From NCBI GenBank assembly GCA_003244105.1, contig QHBK01000014.1:62001-126000 (forward strand): 64,000 nt of DNA, read 5' to 3'. Under the pieces are notes generated by a model. That model ran no database searches. It saw only the letters and a program-made list of their open reading frames with translations, and had not been told where the DNA came from. Position numbers and translations under genes: made by a program. Positions 1-43,062 of the stretch are shown in pieces. How positions within the stretch are numbered: the first letter of the stretch is position 1; the number at the start of each line of letters is the position of its first letter. This DNA comes from Candidatus Eremiobacter antarcticus. GTDB lineage: Bacteria > Vulcanimicrobiota > Vulcanimicrobiia > Eremiobacterales > Eremiobacteraceae.

Positions 1-1609
1 AAGGTACGTTTGTGCCGCCCGACCCGGCCAAGGGCGCGGCGATGCCGAAGCCCTCGGTCATGTTGTGCAGTCCGAAGCCCACGATCAGCAGCAAAGCGAG
101 TTGAATCGCTCCCGTCGCGGCCGACTCACCGATCGCCAGCCCCTCGCTGAAGTTATGCAGGCCGATGCCGGCCGCGATGACGGTCGCCAAAGCCAGAGGC
201 GTCATGGAAGCACCGGCGCCATGCTTGAGAAAGAACGAGCGGGAGAAGAACACGAGGCTCAAGAGCCCGGTCGCAAAGCCGCCTAGATAGGTGAGGAGCA
301 AACCCCAAAACGGACCTTTGGGCGCGCCCTGCTCCACGTGCTGCAAGGCCGTCTCCAACGGTTCCCCGGCTTGACGCAAGATGTCGAAGAGCAGGAAGAA
401 CAAAACGCCGATGGCGATCGCATTGAAGAACGCGATGCCTCCCGGCGACACGCGTTTGATGGCGGCGAACGGCAAGCCGAAGAAGATCGTAAGTCCGGCG
501 ATGGCTCCCAAGACCAACGTCGTCGCCTGGCTCAGCGGGGCGCCGCTCGGATCCTTGCCCCCGCCCCCTCCCGCGCCGGAATTGGACATCTGCATAACGT
601 CCTGACCGGCGAGAGCGGAAAGCCGGTCAGGTGCGTTTTCATACTGCACGGCCGTCACGAGACCGCCGGGGCCTGCGCCGGAATTCATCATGTGATCGGC
701 GATGTGGCAGTGGAACAGCCACGTTCCAGGCTTAGCGTCCGCTCGGAAGGCGATGTCGCGGGTTTCGCCCGGCCCGATCAAGAGGGTGATCATGCGCTGG
801 CGGCTCGCCTGTGCGACCGGTTGTCCGTCGACGGCGACCACTTCGAAACGGTGGCCGTGCACGTGCATGGTGTGGGATTCGGTGCCGCTGATGTTGATCT
901 CGCGGATGCGCACGCGGTCGCCGCTTTTGACCTTGAAGGCTTTCGTCAACGGATAACTCTTGCCGTTGATGCTGAAGTAGTTCTCGGCATCGCTGAAGAT
1001 GCGCCACGAGGACAACAGCATGAGATAATCGCGTGTGTAGCTTGGGCGCGCGGGTTTTGCTTCGTCCACGACGACCGCGCCGTATAGTCCTCGATCCAGC
1101 TGGTTCAGATCGTCGAAGTGGGTGTGGTAGATATACGTGCCCGGCTCGGTGGCTCGGAACACGTACGCAAAGGTCTCACCCGGCTGGATCGGGTTCTGGC
1201 TCAAACCCGGAACTCCGTCCATGTCGGCATCGACCGGCAAGCCGTGCCAATGGACGGTCGTCGCCTCGGGCAGATGATTCGTCAGCAGCACGCGCACGTG
1301 GTCCCCCTGGCGCACGTGAATGGTGGGGCCCGGAACGGTGCCGCTATACGTCCATGCCTGGGTGACGACTCCGGGGGCGACTTCCCAGGGCTTCACCTCT
1401 GCGACGATGTGAAATACCTTGACGCCGCCTTGGGGCACCGGCGGCAGCGCGGGCAACAGATCGTACGAGCGCTGCGCCTGGGATTCAGCGGCCACGACAT
1501 CGGCATTGGAAACGTCTGAGTGAAGCAGTCCGGTCGTGCCGGCGCGTGCCGGGCCGTCAAGCGCCGCTGCTAGGCAAGCAGCGATGATCGCGAGCGTTGC
1601 GGTTTTCAC
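1..1609 (-). CDS. Multicopper oxidase fused to a ZIP-family metal transporter (partial, runs off left edge)
   Basis: A single open frame runs from GTG 1609 to the window edge, 536 residues visible. Residues 1-23 form a signal peptide. Residues ~65-330 are a two-domain multicopper oxidase with all four copper motifs: HWHG (~120), HTH (~162), the HTMHVHGH cluster (~246) and HCHIADH (~300). A glycine-rich linker at ~343-357 (VWQ... region ends, then NSGAGGGGGKDPSG) leads into at least five hydrophobic helices with the ZIP metal-site motifs HNFSEG (~485) and HNMTEG (~515). No stop separates the halves: GTG 1609 to the internal ATG at 595 is exactly 338 codons. The start overlaps the DtxR gene stop by 4 bp, so the two are coupled. 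I infer a secreted copper oxidase tethered to its own divalent-cation permease. The remaining ZIP helices lie outside the window. Confidence 0.88.
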   Translation of the reverse strand, partial: MKTATLAIIAACLAAALDGPARAGTTGLLHSDVSNADVVAAESQAQRSYDLLPALPPVPQGGVKVFHIVAEVKPWEVAPGVVTQAWTYSGTVPGPTIHVRQGDHVRVLLTNHLPEATTVHWHGLPVDADMDGVPGLSQNPIQPGETFAYVFRATEPGTYIYHTHFDDLNQLDRGLYGAVVVDEAKPARPSYTRDYLMLLSSWRIFSDAENYFSINGKSYPLTKAFKVKSGDRVRIREINISGTESHTMHVHGHRFEVVAVDGQPVAQASRQRMITLLIGPGETRDIAFRADAKPGTWLFHCHIADHMMNSGAGPGGLVTAVQYENAPDRLSALAGQDVMQMSNSGAGGGGGKDPSGAPLSQATTLVLGAIAGLTIFFGLPFAAIKRVSPGGIAFFNAIAIGVLFFLLFDILRQAGEPLETALQHVEQGAPKGPFWGLLLTYLGGFATGLLSLVFFSRSFFLKHGAGASMTPLALATVIAAGIGLHNFSEGLAIGESAATGAIQLALLLIVGFGLHNMTEGFGIAAPLAGSGGTNVP

Positions 1610-2322
1610 GCCTGCGCGGCATCCTGCACGAGAATATCTCCCGCGAGTTGAGTGCTGATCGTGTGGATCTGCCCAGCGACGTCGATGCGAAGTAATCCCG
1701 CGACACGCTCGCGATGCTGGACGGTGATCTCCACACCGGGCCGGATGTTGATGTCGGCCAGGAATTTGAGCAGCTCCGGCATGTCGTGTTTCACTTCCAG
1801 CACCACCGACTTCGTGTGCACGGGCAGATCTGCAAGCTCCACTGCGTGGTCATGACGCCACAGCGAGCCGTCGGGCAGCGGGATCGGATGGCCGTGCGGA
1901 CACGTCGACGGTTCGCCTAAGAATCGCGCCAAGTGCTCTTCCACCTGCGGCGAGATCGCGTGCTCGAGACGGCAGGCCTCGAAACCCGCCACTTCCCACG
2001 AGATGCCCAGATGATCCACGAGCAGCCGTTCCGCCAGCCGTTGCCTTCTCAAAGTCACCGCTCCGATGTGCGCGCCGCGCGCTGTCGGCACCACCCCGTG
2101 ACGGCCCTCATGGACGACGTAGCCGTCGGCGTCGAGCTTTTTGAGCATGGCTGAAACGGATGGAGCGGATATCGCCAGTTCTTGCGCCACTGCCGTTATG
2201 GAAACCGGTTCTTCGCCGTCGTAGAGCCGCACGATCGACTTGAGGTACATCTCGACGTTGGGGCTGACTTCGGGCTCAACGGTGAGGAACGACGGGGGGA
2301 ATTTCAGGGCTGAGTTGCTCAC
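1606..2322 (-). CDS. DtxR/MntR-family metal-dependent transcriptional regulator
   Basis: This 238-residue protein has the DtxR layout. An N-terminal winged helix-turn-helix spans ~20-80 (EMYLKSIVRLYDGEEPVSIT followed by the recognition helix). A metal-binding and dimerisation domain follows at ~85-150, with Cys, His and Glu ligands around ACRLEHAISPQVEEHL and STCPHGHPIP. The C-terminus (~165-235) is an FeoA/SH3-like domain. Members repress or activate iron or manganese genes according to metal level. The GTG start is preceded by GAGG. Its stop overlaps the start of the oxidase-ZIP gene, and a DtxR-like palindrome lies 43 bp upstream, so it probably controls its own operon. Whether the metal is Fe or Mn cannot be told here. 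Confidence 0.92.
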   Translation of the reverse strand: MSNSALKFPPSFLTVEPEVSPNVEMYLKSIVRLYDGEEPVSITAVAQELAISAPSVSAMLKKLDADGYVVHEGRHGVVPTARGAHIGAVTLRRQRLAERLLVDHLGISWEVAGFEACRLEHAISPQVEEHLARFLGEPSTCPHGHPIPLPDGSLWRHDHAVELADLPVHTKSVVLEVKHDMPELLKFLADINIRPGVEITVQHRERVAGLLRIDVAGQIHTISTQLAGDILVQDAAQA

Positions 2323-2364: not shown

Positions 2365-2382
2365 AATTAGGTCGGCCTAATT
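2365..2382. promoter_or_regulatory. Putative DtxR-family operator (perfect 7-bp inverted repeat)
   Basis: AATTAGG-TCGG-CCTAATT is a perfect dyad with 7-bp arms and a 4-bp spacer. It contains the TTAGG...CCTAA core typical of DtxR/IdeR/MntR boxes. It lies between the regulator start (2322) and any upstream gene, where an autoregulatory site would be expected. Confidence 0.6.
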
Positions 2383-5093: not shown

Positions 5094-5170
<77 letters not shown>

Positions 5171-41417: not shown

Positions 41418-41894
41418 ATGCGCAGCCTGGCTTCTTCTTTCGTATGCGGCGCCTTGGCGACGATAGCCGCCGTGGCTTGTACGCCCGGTGCAGCCACCGC
41501 TCCCAGCAATGGCTCGGCAAGCGCTTCAGGGGCTGTGGTGGTAGCCGTGAGCCTCATAAAGTACGGTCAGGCTACGAGTTCCTTCGGTGCGGTGGGAGGC
41601 TACAGCCCGGCGGTCATCGTGGTCGCCCGAGGCACGCCGGTGCAGTTCCGCAATGACGACACGTTCGCGCATACCGCGAGCGGCCTGGGCAGCGCTGCAT
41701 TCCCGCAGACGAATCCGCTGGGCACCGCGGCCCAAAGCCTCCACGGCAGCGACGTGTCGCAACCGGATTGGTCCACCGGAAACCTGGGCGCGGGAGCGCT
41801 GTCCGCGCCGCTCAACACGTCCCAACCGGGGACGTACTTCTTCGGCTGCTTCTATCACTACCCGACGATGCGGGGCGTGATCGTTGTCCGCTAA
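41418..41894 (+). CDS. Exported cupredoxin (blue-copper) protein
   Basis: 158 residues. A signal/lipobox-like leader (LATIAAVACTPGAATAPSNG) precedes a cupredoxin domain. Type-1 copper ligands can be placed: His in DTFAHTASG, and Cys, His and Met in FFGCFYHYPTMRG. It likely carries electrons outside the membrane. Its stop overlaps the start of the CxxCH protein by 11 bp, so the two proteins are made together. Confidence 0.82.
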   Translation: MRSLASSFVCGALATIAAVACTPGAATAPSNGSASASGAVVVAVSLIKYGQATSSFGAVGGYSPAVIVVARGTPVQFRNDDTFAHTASGLGSAAFPQTNPLGTAAQSLHGSDVSQPDWSTGNLGAGALSAPLNTSQPGTYFFGCFYHYPTMRGVIVVR

Positions 41895-43062
41895 GGTGCG
41901 CGCTTTTCGCCGTCTGCTGTTTGCTGCCGGGTCGCTGCTGGTTCTGAGCGCGGCGCTGCGCCAACCGGCGTCAGCCGTACCGATCTTCGCGGAGCGCTAC
42001 GGCTTCCAGTGCAGCGCGTGCCATACCGCCCTGCCGGAGTTGAACGCCTTTGGAAACGCGTTTCGACGCAAGGGCTTCCAGCTGCCCGGCGTGCCCAGGC
42101 ACCGTGAGTTTCCGCTCGCGCTGCGCTTTCAAGAGACGTACGTCAAGGATCTGCAGCCGGCGCAGAGCCGCCGCTTCAATGCGCTCGGCATCTTGATCTC
42201 CACTGCCAACTTCGGCCCGGACCGGTCGTATTCGTATTTCGCGCGCTATTTGTTTGGGAGCCAAGGGGCGGCGGGAAGCCTTTTCTATGCGTGGGTGCAG
42301 CATGTGTCACCATCGACCGGCGTGTTCGAACGGCTGGGACTCTTCCAATTGCCGCTGATCGCTAACCCGACGCAACGCCTCGATACCATCACCGTGCAGC
42401 CAGTGTATGCTTATACCGTTGGACACAGCGCGGCGAATCTCGCGACGCCGCGCCTCGGAGCGCTCTTCGGCCGCCGCAACGACCGCATCGATGCGGAAAT
42501 CGCCATCGCCGGTGATGAATACCACGGCGCAGCCTACGGCGCTCCGGCGCCGCCATCGGATCTGCAACAATCGTTCGCCCAGCCGGAACTATTCGGATCC
42601 GCCACTTGGTCGCTCTTCGGGGATTTCAAAGCGGGTGTGTTAGGGTTAGAGGGAGCGCGCTCGTTCCGGTCTCGCACCAGTGCGGCGGCGTTCGGCGATA
42701 CGTACGGCCGGGAGGGTCTACAGGCCGGCTGGACCCACGGACGTTTTGACGTCGCCGCACAGCAGTTATGGGGTCACGACAGCAACGCGGACGGCTTGGG
42801 GAACGCCGCCAGTTCGAGCGGCGGATTTTTGACGGTGAAGTACCGGCCCAGCACGCACTCGTACATCGGCCTGCGTTATGATGCCGCCGCAAACCCGTTT
42901 GCGACGCGCGACATCGACGTGTATGGCGCTCTTTCCCCTACCGTCCACTCACGGCTCGTCATCGAGCATCTGGAACCGATCGGCCCGGGTCGGGTAACGC
43001 CGATCACAAGCGCTCAACTTCTGTTCGCGCTTCCGTTCGCTGAGCCGCCAAAGCCTCACTGA
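41884..43062 (+). CDS. Exported CxxCH-containing beta-barrel-like protein
   Basis: 392 residues from TTG 41884. A signal peptide (ending PASA) is followed by ERYGFQCSACHTALPELNAF, one CxxCH haem-binding motif. The rest is beta-rich, ending in LLFALPFAEP, like an outer-membrane porin with a single haem at its N-terminus. Overlap with the cupredoxin gene suggests an extracellular electron-transfer pair. Confidence 0.72.
   Translation: MSAKVRAFRRLLFAAGSLLVLSAALRQPASAVPIFAERYGFQCSACHTALPELNAFGNAFRRKGFQLPGVPRHREFPLALRFQETYVKDLQPAQSRRFNALGILISTANFGPDRSYSYFARYLFGSQGAAGSLFYAWVQHVSPSTGVFERLGLFQLPLIANPTQRLDTITVQPVYAYTVGHSAANLATPRLGALFGRRNDRIDAEIAIAGDEYHGAAYGAPAPPSDLQQSFAQPELFGSATWSLFGDFKAGVLGLEGARSFRSRTSAAAFGDTYGREGLQAGWTHGRFDVAAQQLWGHDSNADGLGNAASSSGGFLTVKYRPSTHSYIGLRYDAAANPFATRDIDVYGALSPTVHSRLVIEHLEPIGPGRVTPITSAQLLFALPFAEPPKPH

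Follow-up and report, generated by a model that had tools for sequence, protein, structure and literature searches.

A multicopper oxidase and a ZIP metal carrier in a single chain, with a DtxR-box-like operator, in Candidatus Eremiobacterota

The closest described counterparts of the locus reported here are found in ammonia-oxidising archaea, in which a multicopper oxidase (MCO1) and a ZIP permease are encoded by adjacent genes (NVIE_000600/NVIE_000590; PMC7785015, PMC5767755). The pair is proposed to act in copper uptake, its genes rising under copper limitation (PMC7785015), and hydroxylamine oxidation by MCO1 is discussed (PMC5767755). We found a further arrangement in Chloroflexota, with the MCO gene upstream of, and co-oriented with, a separate ZIP gene in 25 of the 25 genomes in which the pair was found (L154, L259-L284). 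The two genes are adjacent, save for a cupredoxin gene lying between them in three loci, and the pair is accompanied by DtxR genes at 7 loci, by NRAMP genes at 3 and by cupredoxin genes at 8. The Chloroflexota oxidase carries its type-1 (T1) motif in domain 1 (HCHxxPxxxH) and thus belongs to a different MCO class from the oxidase described below; because the classes differ, the sequences suggest that oxidase and ZIP have probably been paired at least twice. No single-chain MCO-ZIP protein was found in the literature searched, a search that had most subscription journals outside its reach.

Structure and distribution of the fusion

The window is the whole stretch of DNA that was analysed, 64,000 nucleotides from Candidatus Eremiobacter antarcticus (G000:C14:62001-126000). 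At its left edge lies the fusion gene (L005:9750-11609, minus strand), an open frame running from GTG 1609 to position 2 and comprising 536 codons within the window; in the source genome the stop codon is reached 251 bp beyond the left edge, giving a full protein of 619 aa. Its parts are as follows, in window coordinates unless stated otherwise.

1..1609, minus strand: MCO-ZIP fusion gene, 5' part (536 of 619 codons; open reading frame in the source genome)
G000:C14:61750-62000, left of the window: remaining 3' part of the fusion gene, 83 codons and stop
1541..1609, minus strand: predicted signal peptide, residues 1-23 (...GPARA|G; hydrophobic stretch, AXA-type end by inspection)
629..1426, minus strand: two-domain multicopper oxidase, residues ~62-327 (Pfam; Foldseek on the L038 model)
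1241..1252, minus strand: HWHG copper motif (T2/T3), residues 120-123 (ligands invariant)
1118..1126, minus strand: HTH copper motif (T3), residues 162-164 (ligands invariant)
851..874, minus strand: HTMHVHGH copper motif (T1/T2/T3), residues 246-253 (ligands invariant)
692..712, minus strand: HCHIADH copper motif (T3/T1), residues 300-306 (ligands invariant)
527..628, minus strand: Gly/Ser-rich linker, residues 328-361 (sequence; pLDDT of the modelled relative L038)
2..526, minus strand: ZIP carrier, residues 362-536 of 362-619, the rest lying outside the window (Pfam, transmembrane prediction, model, BbZIP profile)
140..157, minus strand: HNFSEG, metal-site motif of TM4, residues 485-490 (alignment)
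50..67, minus strand: HNMTEG, metal-site motif of TM5, residues 515-520 (alignment)

The preliminary description of this DNA had read oxidase and ZIP as one uninterrupted frame from the window alone. This reading holds, since a single match spans both halves in 69 genomes, which also rules out mis-assembly or a chance frame, and the sequence left of the window completes a full ZIP domain with eight predicted transmembrane (TM) helices, HNFSEG and HNMTEG. Both the Cu-oxidase and the Zip models are matched by all 31 fusion members sampled. In one MAG (L061, 5758-7680) the fusion is split into two open frames within the oxidase half, through either sequencing error or decay.

The closest relative, L038 (72% identical), was modelled with AlphaFold2 from an alignment of 31 rows (mean pLDDT 79.5, pTM 0.54). 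The model predicts a cupredoxin-type sandwich at residues 63-322, disorder at residues 336-352 within the linker, where pLDDT falls below 50, and long helices at residues 358-612 forming eight membrane spans; Foldseek matches it to the two-domain MCOs 2zwn, 3g5w and 3gdc (TMt 0.75-0.81).

The oxidase half comprises two cupredoxin domains (Pfam Cu-oxidase_3, 1e-44; Cu-oxidase_2, 1e-29). Its type-1, type-2 and type-3 copper motifs (HWHG, HTH, HTMHVHGH and HCHxxDH) are all present and intact, as had been described at the outset, and the ligands HxHG, HxH, HxxHxH and HCHxxxH show no change across 15 diverse members or in 30 of a larger set of 31, the single exception having lost one T3 histidine. 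The T1 copper lies in domain 2; domain 1 (HTH) has no cysteine and hence no T1 site. At the usual spacing for an axial T1 ligand, no conserved methionine was found among the 31 members. Assignment to copper nitrite reductase (NirK) was rejected, with TIGR02376 scoring 82.5 bits against a cut-off of 296.3 and the T3-type HTH and HCH motifs complete. Two-domain MCOs assemble their T2/T3 site between neighbouring subunits, one contributing domain 1 and the other domain 2, so by analogy a trimer with three ZIP units is expected for the fusion. The same genome also encodes a stand-alone two-domain MCO (L006, 5524-6651, minus strand; G000:C8), which has no ZIP and is 44% identical to the oxidase half of the fusion.

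ZIP carriers take divalent ions and are often zinc importers. The ZIP half of the fusion is predicted to cross the membrane eight times, TM4 and TM5 each bearing an HNxxEG-type motif, and its profile aligns over nearly its full length with that of BbZIP (5tsa; E 5e-9). Its Pfam Zip match (1e-6, 28.5 bits) falls under the gathering score of 35.1, so a joint Pfam query for Cu-oxidase and Zip would miss the fusion. By this score it is a divergent member, while its E-values, which are significant, its number of helices and its motifs are those of a ZIP. For the N-out/C-out topology of ZIP carriers, the loops predicted to face inwards (TM1-2, TM3-4 and TM7-8) carry positive charges, but TM2-3 has some as well; the predicted pattern may suit the N-out orientation that an exported oxidase requires.

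The fusion was sought in 149 genomes of Candidatus Eremiobacterota (Vulcanimicrobiota at NCBI), 117 of them in the class of the window and 32 outside it. All 69 genomes carrying it belong to that class, which consists of mostly uncultured soil bacteria; it was found in none of the 32 others, in none of 400 Chloroflexota genomes and, at a strict threshold, in none of 397 Actinomycetota genomes, a set without a positive control and thus weaker evidence. A scan of a species-level genome collection yielded 35 fusion loci, nearly all titled Eremiobacterota, with two titled only 'bacterium' and one 'Rhodospirillales'. No horizontal spread was seen, the last of these (L060, G149) giving a match identical, down to its contig coordinates, to that of G112, a genome of the Eremiobacterota class. 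The next-best matches after the fusions were stand-alone ZIPs of Chloroflexota and Actinomycetota. A single origin appears likely from the ZIP tree, in which the fusions all lie on one side of a branch of weak support (80/31); the proteins have since diverged to ~40-43% identity with the linker still open and in frame in 69 genomes. A complete genome of the same class (G014) retains an MCO bearing one TM helix but has neither a ZIP nor an operator box of the kind described below, and the oxidase can therefore work alone.

DtxR-family regulator, operator and a Cyc2-like gene

Immediately upstream of the fusion lies a gene for a DtxR-family regulator, preceded in turn by a palindrome.

1606..2322, minus strand: DtxR-family regulator (PF01325, PF02742 and PF04023, i.e. 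DNA-binding, dimerisation and FeoA/SH3 domains)
2367..2380, no strand assigned: DtxR-box-like palindrome TTAGGTCGGCCTAA, 44 bp upstream of the dtxR GTG

The stop codon of dtxR overlaps the GTG of the fusion, 4 bp being common to both genes, and dtxR lies directly upstream of the fusion in 14 of 14 genomes of the window's family. One DtxR is found at E<=1e-25 in 104 of the 117 genomes of the class. Within the family the regulator keeps the primary metal site (M25, C118, E121 and H122, corresponding to M10, C102, E105 and H106 of DtxR/IdeR); outside the family, members of the class have M or E at position 10. Besides dtxR, the fusion has no neighbour that is conserved throughout the class. Scans for sigma-70 promoters and terminators gave no hits, as did Rfam and PHROGs, and the sole tRNA in the window is a tRNA-Met (CAT) at 5094-5170, plus strand.

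The box has the consensus TTAGG-N4-CCTAA, and in the source genome the only perfect copy is that at 2367-2380. Boxes with one mismatch are no commoner there than in the reversed control, and we claim no wider regulon for this genome. The box precedes dtxR in all 14 family genomes, matching at 9 or 10 of 10 positions. Most other families of the class have dtxR elsewhere in the genome and without a box; among the 29 fusion loci outside the window's family, 28 have the box directly before the fusion gene (18 perfect). With cruder start sites the count is 27 of 29, against ~0.2 loci expected by shuffling. At these loci the arms of the box are 0.98 and 0.88 identical compared to 0.33 and 0.30 for the flanks, and since the arms are conserved and the flanks are not, selection rather than mere relatedness accounts for the box. 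Twenty-four of the 28 boxes start no more than 24 bp from the start codon of the fusion, a placement that would suit repression. In six loci (L048, L049, L051, L056, L058 and L062) the main box is accompanied by a weaker, AGGCGCGCCTA-like palindrome roughly two turns of the helix further upstream, an arrangement that could reflect binding of a pair of DtxR dimers.

Beyond the fusion, a box (score >=9) lies upstream of 9 of 38 stand-alone ZIPs of its clade in other phyla, where 0.1 would be expected, and DtxR genes adjoin 8 such stand-alone ZIPs. Boxes upstream of the Chloroflexota MCO-ZIP operons are above chance only modestly. Some further perfect boxes found in individual genomes, such as three of the five in G032, stand before no recurring gene and could be chance occurrences.

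DtxR-type repressors turn genes on under metal scarcity; the proteins can sense Fe or Mn, and some can activate too. We infer from its adjacency, and from the likeness of the box to DtxR/IdeR sites, that the neighbouring DtxR binds the box. By analogy with established DtxR/IdeR/MntR biology its signal should be Fe or Mn, the metals that the boxes of the fusion likewise suggest. The coupling to a DtxR regulator noted in the preliminary description has proved stronger than was claimed, with a conserved operon, a conserved operator and a wider regulon.

The most unexpected part of the finding is that a second kind of gene shares the box. Perfect boxes in other genomes lead to a Cyc2-like protein that begins with a signal peptide, contains one CXXCH and otherwise resembles an outer-membrane barrel; of the 29 loci in which the protein's motif was found, 27 have the box upstream (24 perfect; 0.14 expected). 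Cyc2 has the published signature AXPXFAR[Q/K][T/Y] (PMC8406198), and we applied as criteria this signature together with CXXCH, PXL, a length of >=365 aa and a porin. At the start of the protein the signature is exact in L199 and has one or two changes in most of the others, mostly H for R; the frames are 353-387 aa long, on either side of the published 365-aa cut-off. An outer-membrane site for the protein is plausible because V. alpinus has an outer membrane (PMC9758169).

At one locus (L187, 1501-1616; G029:C21) the fusion gene and its Cyc2-like neighbour are transcribed away from each other, and the stretch between them holds two perfect boxes. The window itself contains a second Cyc2-like protein (41884-43062, plus strand, 392 aa, AVPIFAERYGFQCSACHTALPEL), which is distantly paralogous to the one under the box (E 2e-30) and has no box near its gene; several relatives have its homologue no more than ~2 kb from a further MCO gene (e.g. 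G009:C74, G005:C13).

Possible functions of the fusion

Our leading interpretation, which we hold with about even confidence, is that the fusion is a DtxR-controlled, metal-limitation-induced protein for acquisition of Fe(II) or Mn(II), in which the oxidase is tethered at the outer face of a ZIP importer. The exported two-domain MCO and the divalent-metal importer to whose outside face it is anchored would form one membrane protein. With Fe(II) or Mn(II) plentiful, DtxR would sit on TTAGG-N4-CCTAA near the gene start and repress; when the metal is scarce the fusion would be made, together with the Cyc2-like cytochrome-porin in many lineages. The ZIP half would then bring in the divalent metal, and the oxidase half would act in the periplasm at the mouth of the carrier to condition the metal supply, by oxidising Cu(I), a ligand or another competing or complexing species, or by metal hand-over. 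This conditioning is the weakest step of the scheme, and we regard it as most likely, ahead of a Fet3-like production of Fe(III), because oxidation of Fe(II) to Fe(III) would remove the substrate of the ZIP rather than supply it. The initial suggestion of Fe or Mn uptake or detoxification is upheld in part: Fe or Mn fits a DtxR-type regulator, but detoxification is less likely since such a repressor turns genes on under metal scarcity.

The acquisition reading has a more ambitious extension, in which an outer-membrane Cyc2-like cytochrome-porin and the inner-membrane oxidase-carrier fusion would cooperate in DtxR-controlled, redox-coupled iron acquisition across two membranes; we consider this possible but doubtful. 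If true, Cyc2-like cytochromes in Eremiobacterota would serve metal acquisition, not an Fe(II)-oxidising energy metabolism.

Among the rival explanations, copper handling fares best, though we think it unlikely. Here the oxidase would convert Cu(I) to Cu(II), and the ZIP would import Cu(II) or the pair would shield the cell or the carrier from copper. This is the published proposal for the archaeal MCO1-ZIP genes, which are induced by copper limitation (PMC7785015), and it is in keeping with the cupredoxin genes in eight Chloroflexota loci and a heavy-metal P-type ATPase-like gene close by in L154. However, control apparently operates through DtxR boxes, known DtxR systems respond to Fe or Mn, and the fusion has no class-wide conserved neighbour besides dtxR.

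Import of Mn(II) or Zn(II) comes next and is likewise improbable; the oxidase would have an unrelated periplasmic job (e.g. laccase-like oxidation of ligands) and the fusion would merely co-localise or co-regulate the halves. NRAMP genes beside some Chloroflexota pairs, the occurrence of oxidase and ZIP separately and the one perfect box genome-wide, which resembles a small MntR-type regulon, are all consistent with this. Against it, two-domain MCOs of different classes have apparently been joined with ZIP at least twice, which argues for a joint function.

More unlikely still is an extracytoplasmic oxidation of Fe(II) by the fusion and the Cyc2-like cytochrome-porin together, serving energy or protection, with the ZIP ancillary. 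The shared box does precede a protein near the Cyc2 signature, and a Cyc2-like gene in an Eremiobacterota MAG has previously been read as pointing to Fe(II) oxidation (PMC8357290). Abundant iron would nevertheless lead a DtxR repressor to silence the set, the R of the signature is mostly replaced by H, and the lengths straddle the cut-off. The co-regulated Cyc2-like protein is a caution against taking every Cyc2-like gene as evidence of Fe(II) oxidation. Finally, it is very improbable that the frame gives two products, through linker cleavage or a second translation start near ATG 595, for although the linker is predicted to be disordered and AGGA shortly precedes that ATG, the linker is open and in frame in all 69 genomes, in proteins of as little as ~40-43% identity.

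Comparison with known systems

In fold (Foldseek E ~1e-24) and in the layout of its copper sites the oxidase half resembles the two-domain laccase mgLAC (2zwn) and the N. europaea blue copper oxidase (3g5w), both of which, unlike the fusion, were solved as stand-alone enzymes. Relative to the fusion the motifs of 2zwn are swapped, with the cysteine in domain 1 (YHCH) and an aspartate in domain 2 (HDH). The carrier half belongs to the same ZIP family as BbZIP (5tsa/5tsb/8czj), which has no oxidase domain; in BbZIP numbering, H177, E181 and E211 are retained and Q207 is replaced by His. At the second metal site D208 has become N and E240 T, so the metal preference of the fusion cannot be read from BbZIP.

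The regulator of the window's family shares with DtxR/IdeR the primary site and the TTAGG/CCTAA palindrome. At the ancillary site, by contrast, H79 is replaced by Q and H98 is lost, and in the window's genome, unlike in DtxR/IdeR systems, there is apparently one perfect target.

The yeast Fet3-Ftr1 system likewise combines a multicopper oxidase and a metal permease under metal-starvation control, but its oxidase has three domains and its Fe(III) permease is a separate and unrelated protein in place of a ZIP; by inspection the REXXE motif of Ftr1-type permeases is absent from the 619-aa fusion. The parallel with yeast drawn in the preliminary description is thus a loose one, as ZIP moves divalent ions, and the MCO-ZIP pairs of archaea and Chloroflexota, absent from that description, are closer precedents. 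The Chloroflexota operons have the gene order of the fusion and, in seven loci, a DtxR gene; they differ in encoding two chains and in placing the T1 site in domain 1 rather than domain 2, and the ZIP of L154 has an N-terminal extracytoplasmic extension of its own. That one lineage holds both functions on one polypeptide and another in an operon with a different MCO class suggests that oxidase and carrier belong together. The archaeal pair has a two-domain MCO beside a ZIP, as in the fusion, and a joint role in metal uptake has been proposed for it, but it is encoded by two genes rather than one chain, and the available parts of its description report no link to DtxR. The MCO-ZIP pairing itself is therefore known, its job never settled, and the DtxR boxes make its function testable; what is new is the single-chain fusion, which may work like the archaeal MCO1-ZIP pair, yet is a different arrangement.
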